Source: a virus. Taken from it: a stretch of 20,846 bases of DNA. A model generated the notes under the pieces. The model did not search any database and was not told the origin of the DNA. It was given only the letters and a program-made list of their open reading frames with translations. A program made the translations under genes and the position numbers. Numbering within the stretch: the stretch's first letter is position 1; each line of letters opens with the position of its first letter. Positions 4,224 through 19,066 of the stretch are shown here, in pieces. The DNA lies in the IMG/VR virus record IMGVR_UViG_3300043544_000038, positions 1-20,846 of that record. One strand, given 5' to 3'.

Positions 4224-4745
4224 TCAAGTCACTTTTGGAAGGATCTCAATCACTATCTCCAAAAGATTCTTACTCGAAGCCGTTCGAATGATTGGTGGAT
4301 GATTCACATATGCTAACAACTTACCCGGATCGGCCACTTGATCTGGCAGTAGCACATTATCATTTTCATGTCCCGAAGCTGGCGTGAGATCTACTGTGAT
4401 ACCGAACTGGCGAAATGTAACAACTGGAAACACATCAAATTTTAAAAGTGTAGAAGCGTAAATCCAACGAGCTCCTTCATCGTAAGCATTAGCATCAGTA
4501 ACCAAGGAATATTTTTGACCTCGGAATTCGATGTTACCACCTGGATCCTCTTTACAAAGTGAGACGGTCTCGGCCTTCTGATAACCGCCCACCTCGGAGA
4601 GAGATGAAGTATCGATGCTTTCGGAAGGTGGATTATTTTCATCGGTCCAAGGCGTCTGTATCCTAGCGACTAGAAACCACCACGCCCATTCATTCTTCAT
4701 AAACAAAGCTTGCTTAACGGTCCCAGCTATGACTGTGGTTGCCAT
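4224..4745 (-). CDS. Small baseplate protein, possibly gp8-like wedge subunit
   Basis: This 173-residue product starts at an ATG behind an AAGGAGG site. It lies between the gpI-like gene and the giant fibre gene, so a baseplate or fibre-attachment role is likely. The C-terminus (LLAYVNHPPIIRTASSKNLL then EIVIEI) resembles the ending I recall for T4-type gp8 wedge proteins, where a Y-x-N-R/H-x-P-I-x-R-S block precedes a hydrophobic beta strand. T4 gp8 is about twice as long, so this would be a reduced version or a protein sharing only that end. The N-terminus contains an aromatic run (EWAWWFLVARI) that does not look like a signal peptide. Position supports a structural role; the gp8 link is tentative. 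Confidence 0.55.
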   Translation of the reverse strand: MATTVIAGTVKQALFMKNEWAWWFLVARIQTPWTDENNPPSESIDTSSLSEVGGYQKAETVSLCKEDPGGNIEFRGQKYSLVTDANAYDEGARWIYASTLLKFDVFPVVTFRQFGITVDLTPASGHENDNVLLPDQVADPGKLLAYVNHPPIIRTASSKNLLEIVIEILPKVT

Positions 4746-6807: not shown

Positions 6808-7101
6808 TTATCTCCATTCCATCCATTCCCACACGTCCAGAAAATGAGGCACTTTCAAGAATGATCCTATCAACTTGGGGTCCATTAGATCCAGGATATC
6901 ATTCGCCACTGGAATCACCCACCAAAGATACGGATTCTGATAAACTTCATTAGCCAATATATCCCATCTTCCCACGTATGCTTCAGTGAACAGAACTATG
7001 GATGTGGGACGTCGAAGGTGCTTCTTGAACTCGGAAAGATTCTTGTTCCAGATGTTTAATTCATTATTTTCTTTTGGAAAAATTTCCCAAATTTCTTTCA
7101 T
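6808..7101 (-). CDS. Baseplate wedge protein, gp53-like
   Basis: A 97-residue protein with the gp53-type core: GRWDILANEVYQNPYLWWVI then PVANDILDLMDP, followed by a short hydrophobic strand (GSFLKVPHFLDV). The D-x-x-A-x-x-x-Y-x-x-P-x-L-W-W-V-I-x-x-x-N motif is what I recall for T4 gp53 and related LysM-like wedge proteins. The ATG overlaps the gp25-like stop as ATGA, so the two are probably translationally coupled. In T4, gp53 and gp25 sit together at the inner wedge, in line with the adjacency seen here. It is shorter than T4 gp53. Confidence 0.78.
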   Translation of the reverse strand: MKEIWEIFPKENNELNIWNKNLSEFKKHLRRPTSIVLFTEAYVGRWDILANEVYQNPYLWWVIPVANDILDLMDPKLIGSFLKVPHFLDVWEWMEWR

Positions 7102-7469
7102 AGTGTAAGCACCTTAGACCAGATCAATGGTAGGTTCAGTTCGCGTAAGATCGCGTGAACCGTGACTTGATAACCTCCTAGCTTATGGTTAGCTACTACA
7201 TCAATCTTATCCACCATTACTCGGTCTTCCCACTCCCTGAGAGCAGAAAGAACCTCCAAACCAATTTGGTGGGCTATGGCTGGGCTGATGGGCTCGTGAA
7301 GGAGATACTCTAGCCGGGTTCCGAAACTCGGCCGCATTACCCTTTCGCCCACTCGGGTCAACAGAATGTTCTCAATGCTCCGGGCCACAGCGTCAAGGTT
7401 TCGATCCACCTTGATGTCGCCCGAAGGCAAAATTTGCAACCGATTGTTGATATCAGACCACAGTTCCAT
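7098..7469 (-). CDS. Baseplate wedge protein, gp25-like
   Basis: A 123-residue product with the gp25/gpW family layout: LDAVARSIENILLTRVGERV, then MRPSFGTRLEYLLHEP, and a C-terminal beta strand region. The R-P-x-F-G-x-x-L block is the family hallmark. gp25 initiates sheath assembly at the baseplate in T4 and is conserved in contractile systems generally. The start is unusual: the first A of ATG 7469 is the last base of the 20-bp promoter-like element, and no Shine-Dalgarno lies at a workable distance. Nearby alternative starts have no ribosome site either, and the N-terminal LWSDINNRL fits the family. It is either leaderless or translated on read-through mRNA. Confidence 0.88.
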   Translation of the reverse strand: MELWSDINNRLQILPSGDIKVDRNLDAVARSIENILLTRVGERVMRPSFGTRLEYLLHEPISPAIAHQIGLEVLSALREWEDRVMVDKIDVVANHKLGGYQVTVHAILRELNLPLIWSKVLTL

Positions 7470-7488
7470 CTCACTAAAAATCTAAATT
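7469..7488 (-). promoter_or_regulatory. 20-bp element, copy C: candidate late promoter
   Basis: Plus-strand sequence TCTCACTAAAAATCTAAATT, 19 of 20 identical to copies at 15207-15226 and 19047-19066. On the coding strand it reads AATTTAGATTTTTAGTGAGA and its last base is the first base of the gp25-like ATG. It sits in the 22-bp gap after the PAAR gene, at the head of the wedge operon. A promoter giving a leaderless message is the simplest reading; an operator or processing site is possible. Confidence 0.55.
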
Positions 7489-7491
7489 TAC

Positions 7492-7788
7492 TCAATCTCC
7501 AGCGAAAACGTTGGGGGATCCGGTCATCATATTGGAACAACAGTCGACCTTGTCCCCAATCCGACACAACGGCCGGCTATTCACATAAACGGTGCGACTT
7601 CCTGAAGCTGCCCTTCCATCATGACATCCTCCACCGCAACAATGAACTTCCCAATGATCTCGAAGCCTGTGAGCTCCTCTTTGATTGATGAAAACATTGG
7701 GAGAAGCTTCATCATTCGGCCGAGGTGGCCAACATCCGTGCCCTGTGCAAAGGTCCCGCAGTCTTACTACACGCTTAGCATTCGCCAT
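7492..7788 (-). CDS. PAAR-type spike tip protein
   Basis: A 98-residue protein with PAAR-repeat spacing: an early CTGHGC, a central HCCGGGCH, then SRTVYVNSRPLCRIGDKVD. The V-x-V-N-x-R-P-x-x-R-x-G-D pattern is typical of the family. PAAR proteins fold as a sharp cone capped on the beta-helical spike and bind a metal ion near the tip. Eight cysteines (14, 19, 50, 51, 55, 75, 83, 84) and five histidines (17, 40, 45, 49, 56) are more than a single site needs. GAGG lies seven bases before ATG 7788. It directly follows the OB-fold spike gene, as expected for the partner it caps. Confidence 0.9.
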   Translation of the reverse strand: MANAKRVVRLRDLCTGHGCWPPRPNDEASPNVFINQRGAHRLRDHWEVHCCGGGCHDGRAASGSRTVYVNSRPLCRIGDKVDCCSNMMTGSPNVFAGD

Positions 7789-7797
7789 CGCATCGCC

Positions 7798-8313
7798 TCA
7801 CGGGTTAAGATCAATTCTTCGACCGAGAGCATCTATCGTAATTCGACCATCTTCATGAATTCGAATGTAACTTTTGTTCACACTTCTAAGCTCTATCGCT
7901 CCATTCGCATAAAAGACCATATAACTCCCCATTGGGAACCTTAGAATCACTGCCCCGGGATATTCAGCTCTCAATTCTTCATACATGCCTTTGGAATCCA
8001 TAACACCTTTGCCGAATTCCTCCCAGGTGCTGCCTTTTTGGAATCGTTGCTCATTGAAGGGAGTGGACCATCCCATCCATACTGGCCTCTCAGGATCCCC
8101 TTCCTCAAAAAAGACCCATACCCAGGAGTTGACGGGAGGGATGTAAAGGATCCCCGCCTGCCAACAAGGGGTGGCCCAAGGACAATCCGAGTCATTTATC
8201 CTCTCCATGAATGGGAATACTTTGACTTGGAGCCTTCCCAGTTGTAATTCATCTTGGTTGTTTATGACTTTGGCTCGATAGATGTGATTGAAACGATACT
8301 TACCGTTGATCAT
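7798..8313 (-). CDS. Baseplate spike protein, OB-fold (gp5 N-terminus/gpV-like), no lysozyme domain
   Basis: A 171-residue protein whose residues 8-85 follow the OB-fold pattern of phage spikes and VgrG: YRAKVINNQDELQLGRLQVK, then CPWATPCWQAGILYIPPVNS and WVWVFFEEGDPERPVWMGW. The last 50 residues (ILRFPMGSYMVFYANGAIEL through DGRITIDA) look like the start of the C-terminal beta-prism. Unlike T4 gp5 there is no lysozyme domain, and the prism is very short. It overlaps the hub stop as ATGA, with GAGGG just upstream. It should trimerise below the hub and carry the PAAR tip. Confidence 0.87.
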   Translation of the reverse strand: MINGKYRFNHIYRAKVINNQDELQLGRLQVKVFPFMERINDSDCPWATPCWQAGILYIPPVNSWVWVFFEEGDPERPVWMGWSTPFNEQRFQKGSTWEEFGKGVMDSKGMYEELRAEYPGAVILRFPMGSYMVFYANGAIELRSVNKSYIRIHEDGRITIDALGRRIDLNP

Positions 8314-9572
8314 GCTTCCCTCGTCTCTGACTTTAGTCTAGAACTGACTAGAACAGCTTTGATGAAATAGTGACGTCCCAACGCTGAATACAAGTGTATT
8401 AGCTCTCCAATGATCCAATCTCCACTTATCGCATTGAACATATCTCCGTATCCCGTGGGCATTATCACTCGAACCTTCTGGCCCACCCGGAGATCTGTGC
8501 ATCCTGGAATGGCCACCAGCAATTTCCGCAACATTCGGGTTCGCCGAAACCTCCCTCCCCAAAGACCTGGCTGGTTGGGAGAGTGTTTAGTGCCTTCATT
8601 CTGGAAATTGGACAATTGACCTTCATCGTTCTTCAGTATGAGAGACACGATGCTGTTTTTGGTCTTCCCACCAGTGAATTCATCCAAATTGGAAACCCTC
8701 TCTTTCTTCACAGAAAGGCTTTTCAGATCAAACCATCGGCGGTCTATCACTGATGAATGAAAATCAGCCACTGAATTCCTTGACAGAAGTTGGAACCAGA
8801 GGAGGGGAAGCGTTCGAGTTTCTCGGTCCATGTATCCATTGTCGGACATTGCTCGATTAAGATCTTCATGATCTGGAGTATATTGGAATCGGAAACTTAC
8901 TTCTTGATTTTCCAGTCGTGAAAAGCTTTTGAAGTAAAATTTTATCGGAATTCGGTCTCCCGCCCCTGATTCTATCCAAGTGAAGAAATCATGTTGGCGA
9001 GGTCTTCCCGAGAATGCCGAATCCACCAGGTAGCTCAAAAACATAGCATTGCTAGTTCCCAGCTGGAGATAATCCCTGCGGTCGGCACTTCGATCCACAT
9101 CAGAATCAAATTCCAGATATGGATTCACTTTGCGGTAATTCTCCACTTCTGTATTGATGACCTCTTGAGCCACCTCAGAGGCACTCTTATTGTTCCAGGC
9201 TCGGTTCTTCTTCTCCAAAAGCCACGCTCCTAATATCCCCATTCCCACCATGCCGAGGGACACCGCTGAGGGGCGGTAAAAGCCCTCCTGCTTAGTGTCG
9301 CGGAAATCGGCTACAGCCATGTCAAAGGTCCTGCGGTTGCCTTCCTCCAGACCGATTTTCACTACAACATTGCCCAGATGACGATAGTCCAAATATCCCG
9401 CTCCAGGATCCCGTATCAGAATCTTGAAAGCTGGAACTAGAAACCAGAGGGCTTCCCAGACAACTAATTGCTCAATGAATTCATCCGGAACATGAATACC
9501 TTCATCAAAGCGGTATCCCTCCACTACCGCGTTCATAACATAAGCATCTACCATAGTGAGCTTGTAGTACAT
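8310..9572 (-). CDS. Baseplate hub protein, gp27/gpD-like
   Basis: About 420 residues. The C-terminal part contains a pattern typical of hub proteins of the gp27/gpD/gp44 type: GCTDLRVGQKVRVIMP, then SGDWIIGELIHLYSALGRHY ending in FIKAVLVSSRL. Earlier parts are mixed alpha/beta with an insertion rich in charged residues (about 150-185). A GTG three codons earlier (9581) is open in the same frame, but ATG 9572 sits seven bases after GGAG and is preferred. It lies between a tube-like protein and the OB-fold spike, exactly the position of the hub that matches tube symmetry to the trimeric spike. Divergent overall; the family call rests on the C-terminus and context. Confidence 0.75.
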   Translation of the reverse strand: MYYKLTMVDAYVMNAVVEGYRFDEGIHVPDEFIEQLVVWEALWFLVPAFKILIRDPGAGYLDYRHLGNVVVKIGLEEGNRRTFDMAVADFRDTKQEGFYRPSAVSLGMVGMGILGAWLLEKKNRAWNNKSASEVAQEVINTEVENYRKVNPYLEFDSDVDRSADRRDYLQLGTSNAMFLSYLVDSAFSGRPRQHDFFTWIESGAGDRIPIKFYFKSFSRLENQEVSFRFQYTPDHEDLNRAMSDNGYMDRETRTLPLLWFQLLSRNSVADFHSSVIDRRWFDLKSLSVKKERVSNLDEFTGGKTKNSIVSLILKNDEGQLSNFQNEGTKHSPNQPGLWGGRFRRTRMLRKLLVAIPGCTDLRVGQKVRVIMPTGYGDMFNAISGDWIIGELIHLYSALGRHYFIKAVLVSSRLKSETREA

Positions 9573-9577
9573 AGCTC

Positions 9578-10246
9578 TCACTCCGACATCCTGGCACCGA
9601 CTTCACCGACTCGGATTATTGTTTGGTTTCCTGAGGCAATTTGATCCCTACCGACAGCATAAACAGTCGTAATAGACAAATCCACTTCACAGCTCAAAGG
9701 AACTCCATCCACACTGACTTTCGAAAATCGATGTCCAATTCTGTCCACAAAACATTGGTCGAAGATTAACCATCCGCCGATGGAAACTTCTACTACCATT
9801 TGGGACACCCAGCTTATAGCCGGAGAAATCCTCGGAACCGTTATGTCATAAAGAGTCTGTAGAGCTCGCTTTATGTCCTCCGTTGACTCCTCACTTACCA
9901 ACATACATCTTAATCCAAACTGTATATGCTCCGGCATTCCGCCAAATTTCCTAGTCCAAGATATACCTTGTGTTAAAATCTTATACATATGTTTCTCGAC
10001 CTCTCCCGGAATGGAACCAATCTGATTCAGCAACATTGAGCCACCGGCTAAAAGCTGATTGAGAAAACCACGCCAGTTGAGCATATTACCGAACAGCGTA
10101 TCATACATCATATTCAGACCAAAACCGACTTCATCTTGGATATAAGCCTGAAATACTTTATTGTCTCTCTCCATATAATATGGATTGGGAGGGACTGGTC
10201 TAATTGTAAGCAAGTTGTAAGCCGGAAGTTTCAAGGTATCGGGCAT
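9578..10246 (-). CDS. Baseplate tube/hub protein (gp48/gp54-like position)
   Basis: A 222-residue protein directly after the tape measure and before the hub. Residues 1-60 carry no recognisable domain. A helical middle (GFLNQLLAGGSMLLNQIGSI) is followed by a tube-like C-terminal sheet: VEVSIGGWLIFDQCFVDRIG and VDGVPLSCEVDLSITTVYAV. In T4, gp48 and gp54 are tube-fold proteins joining tube to hub; position and the beta-rich end fit such a role, but I see no diagnostic family motif. GAGAGGGGTGAG precedes ATG 10246. A gpU/gpX-like connector is the alternative. Confidence 0.6.
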   Translation of the reverse strand: MPDTLKLPAYNLLTIRPVPPNPYYMERDNKVFQAYIQDEVGFGLNMMYDTLFGNMLNWRGFLNQLLAGGSMLLNQIGSIPGEVEKHMYKILTQGISWTRKFGGMPEHIQFGLRCMLVSEESTEDIKRALQTLYDITVPRISPAISWVSQMVVEVSIGGWLIFDQCFVDRIGHRFSKVSVDGVPLSCEVDLSITTVYAVGRDQIASGNQTIIRVGEVGARMSE

Positions 10247-10261
10247 CTTCTCACCCCTCTC

Positions 10262-13200
10262 TCAATTTAGACCAAGTTGCAGCATAAGTATTGCAATATC
10301 ATCTACCATCAATGGAACTCTGTTAAACTCCTCGCTTGCAATCATCGGAAATGGAGATGGTCTTTCGCCAGAGATGGTCTCGGGTTTCAACTGTTCGGTC
10401 ATGCTAGTGGCAATGGTTTCGGCTACCACCCTTTGCTTTTCGGCTTCAGCTCTGGCGGTCCTTTCCCTTCTCATTGCTTCCTCCCTCACCAGGTCTTCTG
10501 GATAATAGTCAATCACTGGTTGGGGAGGGGCTTCCATTCCCATTCCTTCAAAAGATGATCTCAAAGCTGAAAAGTCAGTCTGCAATTGATTTACAAAAGT
10601 TCCAATTTCCATTCCCTCAAAAGATGATCTCAAAGCTGAAAAGTCAGCTTGTAGCTGATCGGTAAAGGTCTCGGGAAGCCTTGCTTCGACCACCTGTCTA
10701 GCGGGCGGAGCTGGTGGAGGTTCATAGTGGGGGATTTCCTCGAAAGCCCTAGCCGCCTGTTTCATATAGCTGTCAATCTTCGACAGATACAAGACAGCTT
10801 CCTCTTCCTCTTCGAACCGCCGAGCCAGAGATTTTTGCAAAGCGGGATCTCGGGACAAAACGGTCTTGAAGAAACGTGGAAGGGTTTCCTTCTGAGCTTG
10901 GTAGATTTTGCGAATGATTTCCTCTTCGCTTAGCCTTTCCACCTCTTCCCGTTTCATTCCACGGAAGGCCTCCCCCAGAAGCCTTACTACACCTCCGGGA
11001 CCCAGTTGAACTGCCCGAGCCAACATTGCCTCGGTCAAAGCTTGACTCCGCTCAATGTCTATTCCCCAATGCTCTTTCGCATACTTGGCGGAAGGAGCAA
11101 GAAATTTTTCTCGAACGAAACCAATTTGTGCCTCAGCGAACGCTTTTCCAATGCGAGGATCGGCTGCTACTTCTTGCCACCGCTTCTTAAATTCCTCTGT
11201 TCCAGGGATCACATCTTTGAAGTATTCTTTGAATCCGGTGGCTTCGAGGAACTCTTGCACAGACTCGGGAGTGAACTGTGGTATACCATATCCCCAAATT
11301 CCCGCCACTCGAGAAACCATTCCTGCAGCCTTGCGAAGATCTTTGATAGTGGCTCCTAGCCCAGTCTCAAATCTAGCAAAGACTGCCCCAGGACCTTCCG
11401 TGATCTGGAGCTGAGCCTCGCGGATCTGCTTTACAATGGGAGTTAATTTAACGCCAATTTGCTTCAAGACGTCTTCGCTAGGCACTTCGCCTTTCGCCCA
11501 CCACCTATAAGCCTGTCCAATCTGCTTCTGCGCAAATTGGGTGGCTTCTGACACAGTTCTGGACACGGATTCAATAGCCCTTCTCGCAATCTCATGGCCT
11601 TCGCCTATTGCATCTCTTGCGGTGTCATAAGTCCATTTTGCAGCATCTTTTACCGCTCCAACGATTGTTTCGCCCACTCCGAGCACTCGGTTCAATATCC
11701 CAGAAAGTGATTTCCACGCATCCGACGCCAGCTCAACCAACTTATCAACTCCCCTTTTGATTCCATCCCAAAGATCTCCGAAGAATCCTTTCACCGCTTC
11801 CCAAGCTGACGTGAAAGCATTAGACAATGATCCGATCCAATCTTGGGTCTTGATTATCTTCTTCATTCCTTCATAGACACCTTGTGCAAACTCACCAATT
11901 TTAGGCAGAGCTGGTTCGATGAAATACTCGCTGGCTAAACTGCCGAGAATGGATCCCACTATGGCGCCAATTGGACCAAGTCGCGCCCCCAATAGACCCC
12001 CAGCCAGAGTCGCACCACCTCGAACTAGCGCCTTCCCAACTTCGCCACTTTCCAAAAATGTCTCTATCCCCGCTATTCCTGCGCCGAGATAAGGAGCCCG
12101 CTTTCCCAGAAAACCGAGAAACCTTCCAATTCGCCCCAACCTTCCCGCCTTTCCAGGAACTCCCCCTCCAGGAATCTCTGGAACCTTCCCCCTCCTCATA
12201 AGTGCACGAATTCCTATCACATCCAAAATTCGGTCAACTAAGCTCCTTCCAGCACCTTCCGCTCCCTCTATGTCCACTCCTTTGGCTTCAATTCGGAGAG
12301 TTTTGGCGGTGATTTTGGCTTCGCGATCCTGTTTAATTTCACCTTTGGAAATGCTGAGACGGGCTTCCTCTATTGACAGGTCTTCTAAGCTGGTAGCCAC
12401 CTGTGTTGCGAAAAGAGTGGGACGGAAAACTTCCGCCTCTTCCACTGCTTCATACCTGCGTCCCCAAAGTCCCCTTTCCCTTCTCGACCAAGGCACCGTT
12501 GGCCCTGCGGTAAAAGGACCCAAAGCAAATTCCATCCCACTTCGAGGATGCCTAAGAGTTGTCAATCTCCTGGGAACACCCCTTCCACCACGTCTTCGAC
12601 CCCCTCCTAACGTTCGCCCCTGTCCCCATGTCCATCTTTCCCACATTATTTCTTCATATAGCGTCCTTAACACCTGTCCAATTGGACCGAGTGCAGTGAA
12701 AGCTACATCAGCTAATTCTCGCTTCAATCCCCTCCACAACGATCCCAACATATGAGTTCCGAATGAAGCAAAAATCTGCGGGCTAAAAATCAATCTCCTA
12801 AACAGTCTCCCCAAGAAGGTTTCGCCACCTTCGGGCCGAGCCTTCTTGCGCCGATCTTTTTCCCACTCCCTTCTCCATTTTACAATCCGATCATCAATGC
12901 GTTTGAAATAGTTCTCCAACTCTTGTCGCTCTTCTGGAGTTCTCGCGGATTCATAAATTGTTCGCCGAATCTCTTCGGCCATTCGATCTCCCACTTCACG
13001 GGTCTTTTCCACTGCTTTGCGGACTTTCCGAACTTCATCGACAAGGATGGTCTGTGGACGTCCCGCCGCCACCGCAACAGGTGTAACCGGAACCGCTTTA
13101 GCCAACTCCGGCTTCATAGCATCAACGGCTTCTTTGAACGAATCTCGGATTACGGTAGACAAGTTGGCTAAGTCAAGATTCAGTTTTTCGACGCTTTTCG

Positions 13201-13720
13201 TGGGAAGGGACAAAAAATAGTCAGCGGACCTTCTCAAATTCTGTCTAAAATTTCGCAACTCATTGGTGGTAGCGGAAAGGGACATCCTGAATCCACGAGC
13301 CACTCTGCCGAATCCAGAAGCCAGTTCTCGAATCTCTTTCTTAGCTGAAGAAGCCGTGTCGGACACTTCAGTCATATCATCGGTCATAGTTTGAAAAGCA
13401 GATCGAAGATCCCTAAGCTGTCTTTCAAGTTGAGAAACCACCTGTGACACAGCTTGCAAACTGCGGGAGGAATCCGCACCAGCTTTAGCCAATTCGCTAA
13501 GTGATCGGACGGCTTCTCGGTGAGCTCGCTCCTCTTCCCGTTGCGCCCGCTCTTCTTCCATTCGCTTGCGGATGCTTTCGCGCGGCGGCCTTCTACCCCC
13601 ATATTGGGGAGCCACTTCAGGCGCCCCAGGCTCTTCGGGAAGATCTCCTTCTCCCCTTTCATAGAACTTCTCACGTTGTTCTATGAGCCGTTGTCGATTG
13701 ATTTCAAAATCTTTTTCCAA
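10262..13720 (-). CDS. Tail tape measure protein with internal lysozyme-like domain
   Basis: A 1152-residue protein, the longest complete gene here, starting at TTG 13720 behind GGAGGGGG. Residues 1-300 are charged and coiled-coil-like (Arg/Glu-rich helices). Residues 303-350 and about 544-600 are hydrophobic and glycine-rich (for example LAGGLLGARLGPIGAIVGSI), as in tape measures thought to insert in the host membrane. Helical amphipathic repeats follow (600-740), then a lysozyme-like domain (about 775-950), a proline run and a 23-residue tandem duplication (about 1022-1067). Tape length sets tail length; at the usual 1.5 Angstrom per residue this would give about 170 nm (family rule, not measured). 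It follows the frameshifting chaperone gene, the standard arrangement. Confidence 0.92.
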   Translation of the reverse strand: MEKDFEINRQRLIEQREKFYERGEGDLPEEPGAPEVAPQYGGRRPPRESIRKRMEEERAQREEERAHREAVRSLSELAKAGADSSRSLQAVSQVVSQLERQLRDLRSAFQTMTDDMTEVSDTASSAKKEIRELASGFGRVARGFRMSLSATTNELRNFRQNLRRSADYFLSLPTKSVEKLNLDLANLSTVIRDSFKEAVDAMKPELAKAVPVTPVAVAAGRPQTILVDEVRKVRKAVEKTREVGDRMAEEIRRTIYESARTPEERQELENYFKRIDDRIVKWRREWEKDRRKKARPEGGETFLGRLFRRLIFSPQIFASFGTHMLGSLWRGLKRELADVAFTALGPIGQVLRTLYEEIMWERWTWGQGRTLGGGRRRGGRGVPRRLTTLRHPRSGMEFALGPFTAGPTVPWSRRERGLWGRRYEAVEEAEVFRPTLFATQVATSLEDLSIEEARLSISKGEIKQDREAKITAKTLRIEAKGVDIEGAEGAGRSLVDRILDVIGIRALMRRGKVPEIPGGGVPGKAGRLGRIGRFLGFLGKRAPYLGAGIAGIETFLESGEVGKALVRGGATLAGGLLGARLGPIGAIVGSILGSLASEYFIEPALPKIGEFAQGVYEGMKKIIKTQDWIGSLSNAFTSAWEAVKGFFGDLWDGIKRGVDKLVELASDAWKSLSGILNRVLGVGETIVGAVKDAAKWTYDTARDAIGEGHEIARRAIESVSRTVSEATQFAQKQIGQAYRWWAKGEVPSEDVLKQIGVKLTPIVKQIREAQLQITEGPGAVFARFETGLGATIKDLRKAAGMVSRVAGIWGYGIPQFTPESVQEFLEATGFKEYFKDVIPGTEEFKKRWQEVAADPRIGKAFAEAQIGFVREKFLAPSAKYAKEHWGIDIERSQALTEAMLARAVQLGPGGVVRLLGEAFRGMKREEVERLSEEEIIRKIYQAQKETLPRFFKTVLSRDPALQKSLARRFEEEEEAVLYLSKIDSYMKQAARAFEEIPHYEPPPAPPARQVVEARLPETFTDQLQADFSALRSSFEGMEIGTFVNQLQTDFSALRSSFEGMGMEAPPQPVIDYYPEDLVREEAMRRERTARAEAEKQRVVAETIATSMTEQLKPETISGERPSPFPMIASEEFNRVPLMVDDIAILMLQLGLN
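10548..10647 (-). repeat. Tandem 69-bp duplication in the tape measure C-terminus
   Basis: Two identical 31-bp cores (10548-10578 and 10617-10647) lie 69 bp apart. They encode two consecutive 23-residue units, QLQADFSALRSSFEGM and QLQTDFSALRSSFEGM plus linkers. Near identity at DNA level indicates a recent in-frame duplication of three helical turns' worth of sequence. Confidence 0.85.
10871..11398 (-). other. Lysozyme-like (peptidoglycan hydrolase) domain inside the tape measure
   Basis: Residues about 775-950 of the tape measure read AVFARFETGLGATIKDL, then GIWGYGIPQFTPESVQEFLE, FKKRWQEVAADPRIGKAFAE, Q-x-x-F-V-R and a G-I-D helix. This follows the order I recall for lysozyme-superfamily, chitosanase-like domains: E-T/S-G, then (S)YG-x-x-Q, F-L, a W-x-x-x-A helix, A-x-x-Q-x-x-F-I, and G-I-D. 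Glu785 is the candidate catalytic acid and Gly810-Gln815 the substrate loop. The serine usual before YG is replaced by Gly. No search was run; activity is inferred. Confidence 0.5.
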
Positions 13721-13723
13721 CCT

Positions 13724-14615
13724 TTATTTCCCCCTCCGCATTTGTTTCATTAACTCGGCTTCCATCTTTTTGGTTTCTTCTAACTCAACTGCGAACCGTT
13801 TCCATTGATACACATACATTGACTCTGGAAGCAAAATGTGAAGAAAGTAAGCAATTTGAAACTGAATCTGTAGCAACCATTCCCAATGCCTACCACTGGA
13901 CAATAAGTAGAAAAAAGGGAATGGCTACCTCTACCTCCTTTCCACAAGTGGAACAGTTAGCAGTCGCGGTCTCTTTGATCCCATATGATCCTTCCCATTT
14001 TCTCACGAATTCCAGAGCCTCCCTCATCTCTGCTAGAGAAAGATCATCCACCCTTCGACCCATCACCACAGACTCCAGAACATCGAAATCATCCACTTCA
14101 CGGAACCAATCCTTGCCTTTGGGAAAATAGCCCGAGGCTCTGGGGAACCGCACCTGGACCCCACAAGGGAGAGTCACCGGCTCGGTGAAATCGTTGGGGA
14201 TAGTGGTTTCGTCCAATTGCATTAGATCTAACTTCACTCTTCCGCTAGCTCCACAGTCACATGTGTAGCCAACATCAGCCAGAGCTCCGATACTGTTCAC
14301 TCTGTGGGCCAGAAGGACCTTTTTCAGATCTGGAAGGGTGAGATCCATGAGAGAAACCTGAGGAGTGTTAGCTGTAGCTGAATAGAGAGTTCCCTGCAAG
14401 ATGGATATCATTCTCCGAATGTAACCCAGCTCAGTTTCATCAGTAGCTCGAACCAGAGGCTTGATATCCGCAACTTTCAACGGTCTAAAGGTCAATGTGG
14501 AAGGGTATCCATGTCTCCCTTGTGAGGGAAGAGTGACTGCGAAGACTTGTTCTGTGGTGGGTGGTTGAAGAACTACATTGGATCCTTCCTGAACATCCAT
14601 CATGCGGATTGGCAT
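13724..14615 (-). CDS. Frameshifted (long) tail assembly chaperone
   Basis: After codon 235 the ribosome can move +1 (or -2) on CCC-TTT-TTT-C and continue 61 codons: YLLSSGRHWEWLLQIQFQ, then IAYFLHILLPESMYVYQW and a charged helix ending MKQMRRGK, with TAA at 13724-13726, three bases before the tape measure start. The product would be about 296 residues. The extension is rich in Trp, Tyr and amphipathic helix, unlike noncoding translation. It fills a 169-bp hole that would be the largest gap in a tightly packed operon. The extension frame has a TAG six bases before the slip site and no start codon with a ribosome site, so fusion is more likely than a separate gene. A short/long chaperone pair is the rule upstream of tape measures. 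Confidence 0.7.
13890..14615 (-). CDS. Tail assembly chaperone / gp26-like hub assembly protein, unshifted product
   Basis: The frame stays open upstream to ATG 14654, but that would add a start of six consecutive arginines that are simply the ribosome site (AAGGAGGAGGAGG, 14622-14634) read as codons. ATG 14615 follows it directly and gives 241 residues (MPIRMMDVQEG). Four cysteines form a Zn-finger pattern, C119-x-C121 and C221-x2-C224, with C151 between. The helical middle (LTLPDLKKVLLAHRVN) and the two Cys pairs fit what I recall of T4-type gp26 baseplate-hub proteins. The unshifted end is IPFFLLIVQW then TAG. It sits immediately upstream of the tape measure, where tail assembly chaperones lie, and the upstream gene's stop is a TAA 14644-14646. 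Confidence 0.75.
   Translation of the reverse strand: MPIRMMDVQEGSNVVLQPPTTEQVFAVTLPSQGRHGYPSTLTFRPLKVADIKPLVRATDETELGYIRRMISILQGTLYSATANTPQVSLMDLTLPDLKKVLLAHRVNSIGALADVGYTCDCGASGRVKLDLMQLDETTIPNDFTEPVTLPCGVQVRFPRASGYFPKGKDWFREVDDFDVLESVVMGRRVDDLSLAEMREALEFVRKWEGSYGIKETATANCSTCGKEVEVAIPFFLLIVQW
13910..13941 (-). promoter_or_regulatory. Candidate programmed frameshift site with internal Shine-Dalgarno
   Basis: On the coding strand AAAGGAGGT (13941-13933), a perfect Shine-Dalgarno inside the gene, is followed after 13 bases by CCCTTTTTTC (13919-13910). Zero-frame codons are CCC TTT TTT CTA. Phe-tRNA on the second TTT can re-pair with TTC at +1, or with TTT at -2; both enter the extension frame. 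A long Shine-Dalgarno-to-slip spacing is known to favour backward shifts (as in dnaX), which favours -2 as in phage Mu. Direction is unresolved. Confidence 0.65.
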
Positions 14616-14643
14616 AGCGCGCCTCCTCCTCCTTCTTGTTCTG

Positions 14644-15186
14644 TTATCGGGCATTAGTCATTCTCTCTATAGACATCACGGCAAAGCTCACCGTGATAGT
14701 CAAAAGATCGCTTCTCGAATAATCCAACCTGAACGGTTCGGCAGAGGTGGGATAACATTCTATACATTTCACTCCCCACACCCGTTCGCCTTTCAGATTC
14801 AAAAACCAAATTTCAATATTTTTCCGAAACTCTTTCAGTGGCTTGAAATAGCGATATTTATCAGAATCACTCCGATCACTAATTAGCATACTTTGAATCC
14901 ACTTCTGGAAGTAGTTCATCACTACCATATCGTCACTTTCCCAGAAAGTGATAGACAGATCGAAGTCTTGCCAACGGGCGGGGATTTGTAGCACTCTTCC
15001 ATATGCAAGGAAGTAATTCTCAGTGTCAATTCTATCAAAAATTGGAAGGCTTACATCTTGCACCTGATATGCCAACCGCTGGACCACATCCAGAGAGGCA
15101 AAGTCCGAGGGCAGTATGACTTCAAAATTGTAAGCCCTCAATGGCTCGCGAACCTTGCCGATTATGTCAGAAAGTGCAACGGGCAA
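14644..15186 (-). CDS. Second tail-tube-like protein (tube or baseplate-tube adaptor)
   Basis: An upstream ATG (15204) is in frame, but it lies two bases after the promoter-like element and its first codons contain a GGGAGGT ribosome site (15196-15202). TTG 15186, nine bases further, gives 180 residues. The new N-terminus (PVALSDIIGKVREPLRAYNF) then aligns with that of the tail tube gene (PGLTQIAGIVEPQRAYNWEV), which strongly supports the TTG start. Conserved core: FDLSITFWESDDMVVMNYFQ and a closing LLTITVSFAVMSIE strand, typical of gp19-type tube folds. Either this or the 167-residue protein forms the tube. The other may cap the tube at the baseplate. It heads the module with chaperone and tape measure. 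Confidence 0.7.
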   Translation of the reverse strand: MPVALSDIIGKVREPLRAYNFEVILPSDFASLDVVQRLAYQVQDVSLPIFDRIDTENYFLAYGRVLQIPARWQDFDLSITFWESDDMVVMNYFQKWIQSMLISDRSDSDKYRYFKPLKEFRKNIEIWFLNLKGERVWGVKCIECYPTSAEPFRLDYSRSDLLTITVSFAVMSIERMTNAR

Positions 15187-15206
15187 CTTCCTCTTACCTC
15201 CCATAT

Positions 15207-15226
15207 TCTCATTAAAAATCTAAATT
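15207..15226 (-). promoter_or_regulatory. 20-bp element, copy B: candidate late promoter
   Basis: Plus-strand TCTCATTAAAAATCTAAATT, identical to copy A. It lies right after the terminator at 15242-15273 and just before the second tube-like gene. If transcription starts at its end, the leader to TTG 15186 is about 21 bases and contains GGGAGGT, much like copy A's 25-base leader. The terminator-then-element layout argues for a promoter. Confidence 0.6.
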
Positions 15227-15241
15227 GGCAAGAAATCAATC

Positions 15242-15273
15242 AAAAAGAAGGGGCCCGAGTTGCCCCGGGCCCC
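15242..15273 (-). terminator. Rho-independent terminator
   Basis: On the coding strand GGGGCCCG (15273-15266), an eight-base loop and CGGGCCCC (15257-15250) form a perfect 8-bp all-GC stem, followed by TTCTTTTT. It lies 37 bases after the stop of the 185-residue gene and ends the sheath/tube transcription unit. The stem is symmetric, but only the minus strand has a T tract after it. Confidence 0.85.
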
Positions 15274-15309
15274 ATCATCAAGGAGGTGGAGGAGATGGAA
15301 AGAAGGGAA

Positions 15310-15867
15310 TCAGGCGAACTTCTTTGCAACCGTCTTTCCCAGCGCTTTGGGAATTTCACCAACTATTGCATTAACCAACCTGCTTTCTCTAGTCCACGCT
15401 GGGAGATCATAAGTAACGTCCACCCACTCTATTCCAGCTGATTCTAATTTCTTTTCCAAATACTCTATGAACTCATCCAGATACATATCCCAAGCCAAAC
15501 GATCGTTCACTTCCTTGACCACACTTTGGACAATTTTCTGTGCTTCTGGATTCTCATTGACGCGCGGCAGATGATAGCTAACATTCATAACCCGAGCTTT
15601 TGGAAGCCATCCGAAATGATCATAATGCACTCTGAACAACAGGTTCTCAAGCATCTCGGACAGCTCTGCTCCCAAATCTCCATCATAAGCCATAGCAAAG
15701 AAATTTTCAGGATCCATTGGCAAAGATCGGCCCTTTTCTTCCAAAGCTGTAGTGATGAGGTCCTCGATGTAGTGTTCCAACTGGGACCTTCGAGGATCAT
15801 CGTAGCGACAACTCGCTATAAGATCCTGTGAAAAATCTCGAGCTTCGACTGTTATGTAAATGTCCAT
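15310..15867 (-). CDS. Protein of unknown function, last gene of the sheath/tube operon
   Basis: A 185-residue acidic, mainly helical protein that I do not recognise. It has an N-terminal strand (MDIYITVEARDF), a helix-rich middle (SQLEHYIEDLITTALEEKG, MLENLLFRVHYDHFGWLPKA) and a basic C-terminus (GKTVAKKFA). No signal peptide, membrane segment or catalytic motif is visible. ATG 15867 follows AAAAGGAGC by six bases. It lies between two paralogous small genes and the terminator. Its place in the tail operon suggests a tail-assembly or minor structural role, but an unrelated accessory (moron) is equally possible. A remnant resembling its start region lies upstream at 16249-16281. Confidence 0.8.
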   Translation of the reverse strand: MDIYITVEARDFSQDLIASCRYDDPRRSQLEHYIEDLITTALEEKGRSLPMDPENFFAMAYDGDLGAELSEMLENLLFRVHYDHFGWLPKARVMNVSYHLPRVNENPEAQKIVQSVVKEVNDRLAWDMYLDEFIEYLEKKLESAGIEWVDVTYDLPAWTRESRLVNAIVGEIPKALGKTVAKKFA

Positions 15868-15879
15868 CTTAAGCTCCTT

Positions 15880-16233
15880 TTACCACCATAAAGATTCTTC
15901 AAACTCTTGAAACTCGGGATATTCATTAAGGAGCTCTAGCAACATTTTCTCCATTTCACGTTCAACACGTTGGCTAAATTGATTGCTATCTATACTTTTT
16001 CGATCAATTGGCACATTCCCCACCTTAACATAATCCATTATATCATCCCAAACCACTTTACAAGTGAGGTAATAGCTACCATCCTCTTTATTGGAAGAAA
16101 ATCCTAACAAAATCCCACCCGTAAAAGGGTTGCCATACCGATCTCTACCCTCTATCCAATACGCAGTTCCAAACTCATTACGACTCTTATATGGTTCTAC
16201 ACTTATAATCTCCGCATCCGTATATATGGCCAT
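15880..16233 (-). CDS. Protein of unknown function, paralogue of the gene at 16276-16617
   Basis: A 117-residue acidic protein. Shared with its neighbour: FGTAYWIEGRDRYGNPF, a K/N-E-D-x-x-YYLTCKVVW strand, DY, a P-I-D/S-I-D-x-x-S block, FSQRVEREME and YPEFQEFEESLWW at the end. The layout (a beta-rich first half, then a charged helix) suggests a small alpha/beta domain; family not recognised. GGAGGT lies five bases before ATG 16233. It overlaps nothing but shares a 24-bp downstream block with the neighbour, showing tandem duplication. Codons look more AT-rich than the sheath or tape measure genes (by eye). Confidence 0.8.
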   Translation of the reverse strand: MAIYTDAEIISVEPYKSRNEFGTAYWIEGRDRYGNPFTGGILLGFSSNKEDGSYYLTCKVVWDDIMDYVKVGNVPIDRKSIDSNQFSQRVEREMEKMLLELLNEYPEFQEFEESLWW

Positions 16234-16248
16234 GAGTGACCTCCTTAT

Positions 16249-16263
16249 TTACTTTACGCCCAT
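16249..16263 (-). pseudogene. Four-codon remnant of a duplicated gene start (MGVK)
   Basis: After the 113-residue gene, AAAAGGAGC-N5-ATG GGC GTA AAG TAA mimics the ribosome site and start of the 185-residue gene (AAAAGGAGC-N6-ATG GAC). The surrounding 24 bp (16258-16281) match 15862-15885 at about 21 positions. It looks like the end of a duplicated segment interrupted by the second gene copy. Whether it is translated is unknown. Confidence 0.5.
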
Positions 16264-16275
16264 CTTGGGCTCCTT

Positions 16276-16617
16276 TTACCATTCCAAAAATTCTTCAATA
16301 TCTTCAAACTCGGGATAATTATGAAGAATTTCTCTTAACAATGCCTCCATTTCACGTTTAACTCGAGGACTAAATCGACCGCTCTCCATGCTTTCGTGGT
16401 CAATCGACTCTTCTCCCCAATCAGCATAATCCACCGCACCATTCCAAATCACTGAACAGGATAGGTAATAATCATCATCCTCTTCATTGTAAACAAATCC
16501 AAAATAGGCTATAGCCTCAAAAGGGTCACCATTCCGATCTTCGCCCTCTATCCAATACTTAGTCCCAAATTGGTAGTAACCTTCATATGAACTCTGTCTT
16601 ACGATTTCAGCATACAC
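16276..16617 (-). CDS. Protein of unknown function, paralogue of the gene at 15880-16233
   Basis: A 113-residue acidic protein, aligned end to end with its neighbour: FGTKYWIEGEDRNGDPF, N-E-E-D-x-x-YYLSCSVIW, S-I-D-x-E-S, FSPRVKREME and YPEFEDIEEFLEW. The start is GTG 16617, seven bases after AAGGAGG (16625-16631). The paralogue's ATG corresponds here to an ATA two codons upstream, only two bases from the ribosome site. The conserved Y-W-I-E-G and the YYL-x-C strand suggest a conserved fold whose function I do not recognise. The position right after the tail tube gene suggests co-expression with it. Confidence 0.8.
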   Translation of the reverse strand: MYAEIVRQSSYEGYYQFGTKYWIEGEDRNGDPFEAIAYFGFVYNEEDDDYYLSCSVIWNGAVDYADWGEESIDHESMESGRFSPRVKREMEALLREILHNYPEFEDIEEFLEW

Positions 16618-16636
16618 AGCTATTCCTCCTTATTCA

Positions 16637-17140
16637 TCAGCTTTCTTCAAAGTAGTCATACATAATAGTTGCCGTATACTCGACAACATCCGATGCCTCA
16701 TAAGTCACGTCCACTGTATCAACTGCCGTTATCATTGCATTCTTCAAAGTGACCGTCCGGGTGGTATTCTCTTTTCCATCTAGCAATCTTATGCGGATTT
16801 CACCGGACACCTCAGACTTATCACCTTGGGCACCACTAAACCAATCTCCCACCAGAGTCGCCCATTGAATCAAAGCGTTGCGGATCATTTGATCCACACC
16901 TTCCCAGAACCGGACAGTGATAGTCTTGTCTCCAGTTTCACGACCACTCACCTTCCAGTTCATCCATCTCCAATTGATGTCTATGGTGTCGAATGAACGA
17001 CCTGGAACCCCGGTCCCGCGGGCTCGGAACTTCATATTATCTGAAGCTGCTAAGCCCACTGGAGTTCGAATTATTTCGACCTCCCAGTTGTAGGCTCGCT
17101 GGGGTTCTACGATTCCTGCAATTTGAGTCAAGCCAGGCAT
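16637..17140 (-). CDS. Tail tube protein, gp19-like
   Basis: A 167-residue protein with the length and pattern of T4-like tube proteins: N-terminal AGIVEPQRAYNWEVEIIRTP, a central W-M-N-W-K-V-S-G-R segment, then TITVRFWEGVDQMIRNALIQ and a final strand (ASDVVEYTATIMYDYFEES). The F-W-E-x-x-D-x-M-I core and the Y-E-A-x-D-V-V-E-Y ending are typical of gp19-type proteins. It follows the sheath gene, the near-universal order. AAGGAGGT lies eight bases before ATG 17140. It would stack as hexamers around the tape measure. The other tube-like gene at 14644-15186 is a related fold with a different role. Confidence 0.88.
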   Translation of the reverse strand: MPGLTQIAGIVEPQRAYNWEVEIIRTPVGLAASDNMKFRARGTGVPGRSFDTIDINWRWMNWKVSGRETGDKTITVRFWEGVDQMIRNALIQWATLVGDWFSGAQGDKSEVSGEIRIRLLDGKENTTRTVTLKNAMITAVDTVDVTYEASDVVEYTATIMYDYFEES

Positions 17141-17164
17141 ATCGATGACCTCCTTATTCCAGAG

Positions 17165-17416
17165 TTATACGACTTGTTTTCGAAAATCCTTCTCAAATTC
17201 TCGGATCATCTTCTCCAATTCTTCATTGTCACGCTCAAGTCTGTCTACCCAATCTTCCATCGATTCTAACGCATCGGTTAAATACCACCGGAATTCGCGA
17301 ATCTCTGACAACGCTTCGTCGAGAAGCTCTTCACTTACCAGATCCGCTATTCGGTTCAACCACCGCTGCGTTATCCCGATCAGATCATCATCCCGTTGCT
17401 TTTTTACACGAGGCAA
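17165..17416 (-). CDS. Small helical protein of unknown function between sheath and tube
   Basis: The protein is almost entirely charged helix (LNRIADLVSEELLDEALSEI, then DWVDRLERDNEELEKMIREF) with a strong coiled-coil look. The frame is open from TTG 17437, but its first codons (TTG AGG AGA GGA) are the ribosome site. TTG 17416, ten bases after GAGGAGAGG and one base after the sheath stop, gives 83 residues (MPRVKKQRDDD) and is preferred. No family recognised. A role as a small tail assembly factor or scaffold is a guess from position. The tight coupling to the sheath suggests matched expression. Confidence 0.7.
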   Translation of the reverse strand: MPRVKKQRDDDLIGITQRWLNRIADLVSEELLDEALSEIREFRWYLTDALESMEDWVDRLERDNEELEKMIREFEKDFRKQVV

Positions 17417-17417
17417 C

Positions 17418-19022
17418 TTATACCATCCTCTCCTCAAAGTTGTATCCAGTCCTGGTCACTATCACCTTTAGCCAGATGAATCTAATCGCCCTCGTTGGCT
17501 TGAGGTAGACCTCGACTGTGAGCATGCCTTGGTCAATCTGATTGGGAGGATTGTTTCCGGTCCCAATCGGATCGGAAACCACTCGGTAGTCCAAAACACC
17601 GAATCGCCTCTTGATCGCCGCCATAAAATCATCCAACACTGCAACCACTCTCTCACGCGTAAAATCGGTCAGCGGCTCGAAGAGGAACTGATCCAAAGTT
17701 CTGCATACATTCTTCTTAATGTAATTGAGAAGCCGTCGAACCTCTATGAAAGAGAAGGCACTCTCTTGAGTCTGCAAAGTGCGGTTGTTCCACAGCGCTA
17801 TAGCACCGGGCTTCCGTATGAAGCAATTGATCTGAAGCTTGTCCAGTTCATCCCTCTCGGCCAGGGAGTAGTAAATCTTAAGCCCCAGCACATTGGCACG
17901 TCCACGATTCAAACCAGCGGGCACCCACCATGGGTCATGTTCATAATCGCATCGGGCCATCATTCCCGCTACCAGTCCCGAAGGTGGGATGTAAAGTTGA
18001 ATATCATTGTCATAGTCGTAAACCTTGAGCCAAGGCGCTATAGCCCAAGCGTACGATGAGGACACTAGGAAATTGGTATTTCTCCAAGTCTGGATATCAG
18101 CAACTTTGTAAGTTCCCTCATCCACATCTAACACCGCTACAGCATCCCCCCGACCTTCGGCCAAGTTGACTAGAGCGGTCCGAAGAGTGTCTCCACCGAT
18201 TCCGCCCTGTATGAAAAGATCCACATCGTATTCCTCGGTGTTGGAGAAGAGATTGTAGCGGTCCACTATCTTTCCCACTTGGACCGCCGCTCCATCATCT
18301 CCACCCGCTAGACTCACCGCTGTAGTGAAGGTCTTGGGATAAGCTGAATATGTATCAGGATTAACCACTGCTCTCACATAATCATTATTCGCTAAAACAT
18401 TTTCAACGAAAATGCTATTACCATAGCCATCCTTTGCATCAGGATTCAAAGACACCGTTCCATCGAACCGCGTCTCAACAGATCCATCGGGAAGCGTTTC
18501 TGTAATCACTAGGCGGAAGGTCTTGTTGGTTGCATTGGCCTGAGGAATGGCTACTTTGATATTCTCTCCAACATCCCCCGGGCTCCATGCATACAAGAAC
18601 ATACAAGGCGTAATATCCTGCTGCGTATAATCACTCCAATTGGGAATCACTGGTCCACTTCGATCAGTCTGAACAGACATTCCAGAAGTTGGGGTAGTGG
18701 TAGCTGAAGTTGAATCACTAGTGTTCACCACTATGAAGGCGAATTTAGCATCATCAGCCACAGCCCTAACTGCCCAAAGGCCTGCATAACCGCTCTGAAG
18801 GAAACTAACCGCTGCGTAATGAGAAATGAAGCCCTTGTCTAGTCGATGCTGAGTGGTGGAGTAGAGCTCTTTGAATTTGCGTGTGGATGAAACGAATTGT
18901 GGAGTGACCGGACCTCTTTTCGCACTGAACGCTATCACTCCAACACTAGTGGGCAGATTGCTCACAAATTGAGATATGTCTATCTCCGTAATCTGAACTC
19001 GAGGGCTAGCGAATGTTGCCAT
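17418..19022 (-). CDS. Tail sheath protein
   Basis: A 534-residue protein with the typical sheath layout. The N-terminus (ASPRVQITEIDISQF then LPTSVGVIAFSAKRGPVTP) has the P-G/S-V-x-x-x-E-x-D pattern. A large insertion domain lies in the middle (about 80-290), and VNLAEGRGDAVAVLDVDEG and YAWAIAPWLKVYDYD are typical of the sheath core. The C-terminal part has RRLLNYIKKNVCRTLDQFLFE and VEVYLKPTRAIRFIWLKVIV, the handshake strands that link neighbouring subunits. Length is close to Mu/P2-type sheaths and shorter than T4 gp18. GAGGAGGT lies eight bases before ATG 19022, 25 bases downstream of copy A of the promoter-like element. Confidence 0.95.
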   Translation of the reverse strand: MATFASPRVQITEIDISQFVSNLPTSVGVIAFSAKRGPVTPQFVSSTRKFKELYSTTQHRLDKGFISHYAAVSFLQSGYAGLWAVRAVADDAKFAFIVVNTSDSTSATTTPTSGMSVQTDRSGPVIPNWSDYTQQDITPCMFLYAWSPGDVGENIKVAIPQANATNKTFRLVITETLPDGSVETRFDGTVSLNPDAKDGYGNSIFVENVLANNDYVRAVVNPDTYSAYPKTFTTAVSLAGGDDGAAVQVGKIVDRYNLFSNTEEYDVDLFIQGGIGGDTLRTALVNLAEGRGDAVAVLDVDEGTYKVADIQTWRNTNFLVSSSYAWAIAPWLKVYDYDNDIQLYIPPSGLVAGMMARCDYEHDPWWVPAGLNRGRANVLGLKIYYSLAERDELDKLQINCFIRKPGAIALWNNRTLQTQESAFSFIEVRRLLNYIKKNVCRTLDQFLFEPLTDFTRERVVAVLDDFMAAIKRRFGVLDYRVVSDPIGTGNNPPNQIDQGMLTVEVYLKPTRAIRFIWLKVIVTRTGYNFEERMV

Positions 19023-19046
19023 TGGATTTTACCTCCTCTTCACAGA

Positions 19047-19066
19047 TCTCATTAAAAATCTAAATT
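19047..19066 (-). promoter_or_regulatory. 20-bp element, copy A: candidate late promoter
   Basis: Plus-strand TCTCATTAAAAATCTAAATT, identical to copy B. On the coding strand it reads AATTTAGATTTTTAATGAGA and lies in the 56-bp gap between the neck genes and the sheath gene. A start at its end would give a 25-base leader with GAGGAGGT. No other motif is visible in this gap. Confidence 0.6.

Follow-up and report, generated by a model that had tools for sequence, protein, structure and literature searches.

The late promoters of bacteriophage T4, TATAAATA, are read by gp55, gp33 and gp45 with the host core polymerase, and the tAATGTAtA promoters of phiEco32 are read by a phage sigma factor, gp36. 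T4 late promoters are single-element phage promoters which occupy the -10 place, have no -35 and lie before late genes (PMC2988020). The middle and late promoters of phiEco32 also consist of a single element, with a start 6–8 bp downstream that is documented for T4 as well (PMC2988020), and the phiEco32 relative 7-11 displays promoters at similar genome positions but of different sequence (PMC8948821). In the phiKZ group, virion polymerases use promoters that are extended, AT-rich and highly conserved, and for AR9 (AACA-6N-T(A/G)) and phiKZ (TATG) late promoters have been described whose end is a T-purine at the start (PMC5312081). In the Thermus phage phiYS40, most middle and late mRNAs are reported to be leaderless (PMC3594737). 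Late promoters provide a handle on how a phage takes over transcription, and we found no description of one for the uncultivated contractile-tailed phage lineage considered here. It is represented by the viral record IMGVR_UViG_3300043544_000038, analysed at its full length of 20,846 bases (the window), in which a 20-bp element is repeated before three tail-module operons. We conclude that this element is probably a phage-specific late promoter, with a predicted transcription start within it and a predicted late timing. A literature search for its core string returned nothing relevant.

As the first-pass annotation had reported, the window contains three exact copies of the 20-mer in 20.8 kb; each is intergenic and in gene direction. 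On the plus strand they read TCTCACTAAAAATCTAAATT at 7469–7488 and TCTCATTAAAAATCTAAATT at 15207–15226 and 19047–19066. Since the structural genes of the window all lie on the minus strand, the element is to be read as AATTTAGATTTTTA(A/G)TGAGA. No further copy was found in the window on either strand with up to 3 mismatches, where dinucleotide shuffles expect 0.00, and a scan to 7 mismatches added only chance-level matches, the next best having 5 mismatches and lying inside a gene. No 12-mers other than those of the motif occur three times in the window. Around the copies the sequence is unrelated (4–15 identities out of 40), so they are not duplicated segments.

Profile matches confirmed that the genes opening at the copies encode a sheath, a second tube-like protein and a gp25-like wedge. 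Copy A (19047–19066, minus strand) reads AATTTAGATTTTTAATGAGA on the gene strand, with a predicted start at about 19050–19047; the ATG of the tail sheath gene (17418–19022, minus strand; phrog_23, E 1.2e-78) follows 25 nt on, and the ribosome-binding sequence GAGGAGGT lies between. Copy B (15207–15226, minus strand) has the same sequence, with a predicted start at about 15210–15207, and precedes the second tail-tube gene (14644–15186, minus strand; phrog_45, E 7e-14). The open reading frame (ORF) of this gene is open from an ATG at 15204, and we propose the TTG at 15186 as its start, which is plausible because the resulting MPVALSDII.. parallels the MPGLTQIA.. of the first tube protein and because the ribosome-binding sequence GGGAGGT lies upstream; the length of this N terminus also agrees with that in relatives. 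Copy C (7469–7488, minus strand; AATTTAGATTTTTAGTGAGA), with a predicted start at about 7472–7469, occupies the 22-nt gap from the stop of the PAAR gene to the gp25-like baseplate wedge gene (7098–7469, minus strand; phrog_261, E 1.2e-24), and with its final base it supplies the A of this gene's ATG. The start of the gene at 7469 is solid, because MELWSDIN.. agrees with the family and the motif itself contains an in-frame TAG. Copy C lacks a ribosome-binding site at a proper distance. A Rho-independent terminator-like hairpin, GGGGCCCGGGGCAACTCGGGCCCC then TTCTTTTTGA (15250–15273, minus strand), lies 23 bp upstream of copy B; with 10 pairs, 9 of them G-C, and −25.6 kcal/mol, it is the strongest of its kind in the window. 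Transcripts of the tube-1 operon would thus terminate there, and a new start would be needed right after. Two other functions were considered and rejected: a short leader peptide at copy A (ATGAGATCTGTGAAGAGGAGGTAA) has no ribosome site and is not conserved, and a dimeric-repressor operator does not agree with an element that has no dyad.

In order to compare the element across the lineage, we retrieved relatives by aligning the window sheath with the sheaths of Thermus phage phiLo and of contig L112. This yielded nine contigs with 60–71% sheath identity (L198–L205 and L218, here records G002–G010) and the gene order of the window. Each of them carries a diverged element with core RTTTTATATTTW and pattern RTTTTATATTTW-NARTRAGA. 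Because G005 and G006 share one overlapping stretch, the further comparison used eight records. Together these hold 15 strict sites, all of them on the gene strand with none in reverse, against 0.2 expected on both strands. Cognate sites lie before the sheath gene in G008 and G002, with near-core copies in G003 and G004, and before the second tube gene in G002, G003, G004, G007, G008, G009 and G010, while in G005 the tube-2 site lies one small gene further upstream. The G007 tube-2 site, like copy B, is downstream of a strong terminator. In G008 and G005 a site precedes the gp6-like gene of the baseplate operon, where the window has copy C two genes earlier instead. Beyond this group, the core is absent from 17 more distant relatives except for one single match and one AT-rich 190-kb record. 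Searches by DNA in the phage collection gave no near-identical relative, single-sequence scans with the sheath, tube and gp6 proteins gave only one distant sheath relative (31% identical), and the relatives obtained with a broad sheath alignment did not exceed about 40%. The phages phiXF1, QdP_Psa3, phiLo and SRB7757, which have tail order or sheath in common with the window, showed no cognate repeat. Two further layouts were observed. In a more distant relative (L104, 2040–2110) a strong terminator-like hairpin stands directly before the second tube gene and is followed by an AT-rich stretch with CTAAATATAG, as at copy B. In Nitratidesulfovibrio phage SRB7757 (L097, 5674–5722) two tandem 24-bp units with GGAAATGCAAATGTTGACATCGGTGG are located about 300 bp before the sheath gene.

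When both strands of the window were scored with a weight matrix built from the relatives alone, exactly copies A, B and C exceeded 8 bits and no other position did. In a MAFFT alignment, 14 sites align without gaps within the element and TTTA.ATTT is invariant. Columns 13–20, which the strict pattern did not use, are conserved as well: among 15 non-redundant sites we counted A14 in 11, T16 in 13, a purine at 17 in all 15, A18 in 12 and A20 in 13. All three window copies share two changes, T2 to A and T7 to G, versus nearly all versions in the relatives. A concerted shift of this kind is what one would expect if the sites follow a single trans-acting factor, and it leads away from the host -10 consensus. 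Conservation of the 20 bp, which had been taken as strict, does not extend across the family, where a core TTTA(T/G)ATTT is followed by a looser NARTRAGA.

The architecture of the element is that of single-element phage promoters, and a promoter it very probably is. T-purine is a typical start step, and the conserved T16-purine17 follows the core by 6 bp. With the purine of column 17 as +1, the core TTTA(T/G)ATTT would span about -14 to -6 and the hexamer at positions 5–10, TATATT (TAGATT in the window), would occupy -12 to -7, where a -10 element is canonically found. RNA would then start at positions 17–20 (R-A-G-A), giving window leaders of 21–28 nt with ribosome-binding sites for the sheath and second tube genes and of 0–3 nt for the gp25-like gene. 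The leaders of 25 and 21 nt that had been annotated for copies A and B hold if the second tube gene starts at TTG 15186, and copy C is essentially leaderless. No consistent -35 was found in the window. The earlier view that the element resembles neither a -10 nor TATAAATA applies to the window variant and fails for the relatives, whose TATATT(T/A) agrees with TATAAT at 5 of 6 positions and with TATAAATA at up to 6 of 8. Altogether, the relatives, the gene-strand orientation, the terminator, the -10-like core at the right distance from the T-purine step and the concerted change support the proposal of a phage-specific late promoter well.

Several observations weigh against this reading. One strict match in G008 (11028) lies within a small ORF, and the major capsid genes of G008 and G004 have no clear copy. 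The seed that led to the first sites in the relatives came from the window copies, so that the core columns are partly selected, and several sites are homologous copies in near relatives and hence not all independent. No recogniser was seen in any contig of the lineage, and the suggested phage RNA polymerase or sigma factor gene was found neither in the window nor in the contigs of the relatives, which cover structural genes only. Finally, a faint TTKAAA trend at an 18-bp spacer runs over the family and leaves room for a host sigma factor; the best -35 match averages 3.5/6 versus 2.9 at random, a difference for which no significance test was made.

That trend, and the 5/6 TATATT of the relatives at the -10 position, speak for a plain host sigmaA promoter that depends mainly on its -10 and has a weak -35. 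We consider this distinctly unlikely, since the window has TAGATT (4/6) with no -35 and was missed by a sigma70 scan of the gene strand, conservation reaches well past the -10 hexamer, and the change shared by the window copies departs from the host consensus. At the copies no gene-strand pair of TTGACA and TATAAT hexamers with a 16–18-bp spacer was found; against the sigma70 consensus the window scores 4/6 for the -10 and 2–4/6 for the best -35. An archaeal TATA/BRE promoter was rejected as well, because it needs a TATA about 25 bp upstream of the transcript start while start codons follow the core by 8–9 bp at four sites. A promoter for the phage's own RNA polymerase, either T7-like single-subunit or phiKZ/AR9-type multi-subunit, would be about 20 bp long, contiguous and inclusive of the first transcribed bases; a contiguous element ending in purines (GAGA) and identical at 19 of 20 bases in the window fits this description, as do the extended AT-rich conserved promoters of the phiKZ-group virion polymerases (PMC5312081) and the concerted change between lineages. 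Yet across the relatives only the 9–11-bp core and the loose NARTRAGA are conserved, and the core sits in the -10 register. The contiguous conservation over about 20 bp (-17 to +6) that a T7-like promoter would show at all sites of a genome is present in the window (19 of 20), and is loose in the 3' half of the relatives' sites. A search for PF00940, the T7-type polymerase, found none in 16 relatives' records, which are mostly distant or incomplete, and the search controls were also without signal. A polymerase of this kind is an unlikely reader. The argument from length for a dedicated polymerase is weakened, as the family does not conserve the 20 bp strictly, and a multi-subunit polymerase with a sigma-like factor is no less likely.

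The element might also act without being a promoter. As a 5'-leader element at the RNA level, serving translation control or processing, it would be expected near start codons, which it is, and in some relatives its 3' end fuses with a ribosome-binding sequence (GTAGGAGG in G003). This is very improbable, given that its distance to the start codon ranges from -1 to about 70 nt, that coding sequence starts within the motif at some sites, that copy B lies downstream of a terminator and so outside the upstream transcript, and that the element has neither dyad nor hairpin. The possibility that the copies are remnants of insertion sequence (IS) ends arises from an 18-bp match to such an end in Ignavibacteria, Thermodesulfovibrio and Thermodesulfobacteriaceae genomes. 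We judge the match coincidental and give this origin almost no weight: the window copies have neither the outer GCAATTCG/TCAATGCG nor a transposase, another sequence occupies these junctions in the relatives, and a genome-wide scan gave about 30 independent matches, mostly in unrelated places, as chance predicts.

Exact-motif scans of viral and genome collections returned chance matches and this one IS end. The only other virus with an exact 20-mer (L004) was set aside, having no protein similarity to the window and a match apparently inside a coding region. In L049, L051, L056, L059 and many more viral contigs, a conserved stretch (..CCATTTTTTAGAAATTTAGATTTTTAATGATTTGATTTACGTCGAATTTT..) includes 17 bp of the motif, apparently by chance. 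In one Ignavibacteria genome the end of an IS-like repeat (ATTTAGATTTTTAATGAGTCAATGCG) stands exactly 5 bp before a TTGnnn-17-TACATT promoter in 10 of 10 places (L008, L014, L015, L017, L041, L025, L026, L028, L029 and L040), and similar ends precede TTGAC promoters in Thermodesulfovibrio, there before a tRNA gene, and in a Thermodesulfobacteriaceae bacterium (L042 and L043). This suggests a mobile element with the -35 box of host promoters as its target.

For the promoter reading, the question is what recognises the element. A phage-encoded specificity factor acting on a multi-subunit polymerase has about an even chance of being the recogniser and is the most likely one, because a dedicated trans-acting factor would make its sites change in concert and because the change moves away from the host -10 consensus. 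Candidates would be a sigma-like factor encoded by the phage or a host polymerase that the phage modifies, as in T4 (gp55) or phiEco32 (gp36). In a sigma region-2 search of 16 records, the one match was weak and came from a remote phage. A bolder and rather doubtful proposal is that the contiguous AT-rich element and the start region are read together by an undescribed phage transcription specificity factor or by a phage RNA polymerase of a new type, which would drive late mRNAs both with leaders and nearly without them and would have evolved jointly with the element in this uncultivated myovirus lineage.

The nearly leaderless genes recur. At four sites the ATG lies at motif position 20 with no ribosome-binding site (gp25 in the window, tube 2 in G002 and G007, and position 3473 in G005), and mRNAs from these sites would carry 0–3 nt before the AUG. 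With its repeated fusion of promoter end and ATG, the lineage offers a clean natural example of late genes almost without leaders, while elsewhere these phages use strong ribosome-binding sites. More broadly, the element points to a phage-specific transcription switch, and its consensus makes the question testable, since the late regulon can be defined and a search made for a factor whose variation follows the T-to-G change of the core.

The surrounding genes showed some further features. The otherwise T4-like baseplate cluster of the window includes a T4_baseplate hub protein (PF12322) and, at 4224–4745 on the minus strand, a baseplate protein of the SPO1/Staphylococcus-phage type (PF25691, phrog_1394). 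Long gaps at 13721–13889, before the tape measure gene, and at 17141–17417, between sheath and tube 1, contain small candidate ORFs; phiXF1 and QdP_Psa3 have comparable gaps at both places.

Among the described systems, phiYS40 with its leaderless middle and late mRNAs resembles what is predicted for this lineage, and phiLo, the best named relative of the window sheath (33%), also infects Thermus; here only some genes would be leaderless, most having strong ribosome-binding sites, and the likeness is a parallel and not proof of a Thermus host. The phiKZ group likewise has extended AT-rich promoters, among its early ones, and a T-purine at the start of its late ones, while sequence and spacing differ, no such polymerase genes were seen and the lineage is not phiKZ-like on the available genes. 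From phiEco32 the lineage differs in phage family and host, in the absence of an identified sigma gene and in sequence, the core TTTA(T/G)ATTT standing in place of tAATGTAtA. Yet in both a single conserved element without a -35 lies before late genes, and its place is kept while its sequence changes, here between window and relatives. As for T4, the 8-bp TATAAATA expected at about -13 to -6 is matched at only 4 of 8 positions by the window's TAGATTTT and at 5–6 of 8 by the relatives, the conservation of the element reaches the start region, and gp55 and gp33 homologues were not seen in the structural-region contigs. What the two have in common is one AT-rich element at the -10 place with no -35, none being consistent in the window and a faint trend appearing in the relatives; a position before late structural genes, namely sheath, tube 2 and gp25/gp6 in the window and its relatives; and, in the relatives, a sequence, TATATTTA, that agrees with TATAAATA at 6 of 8 positions.

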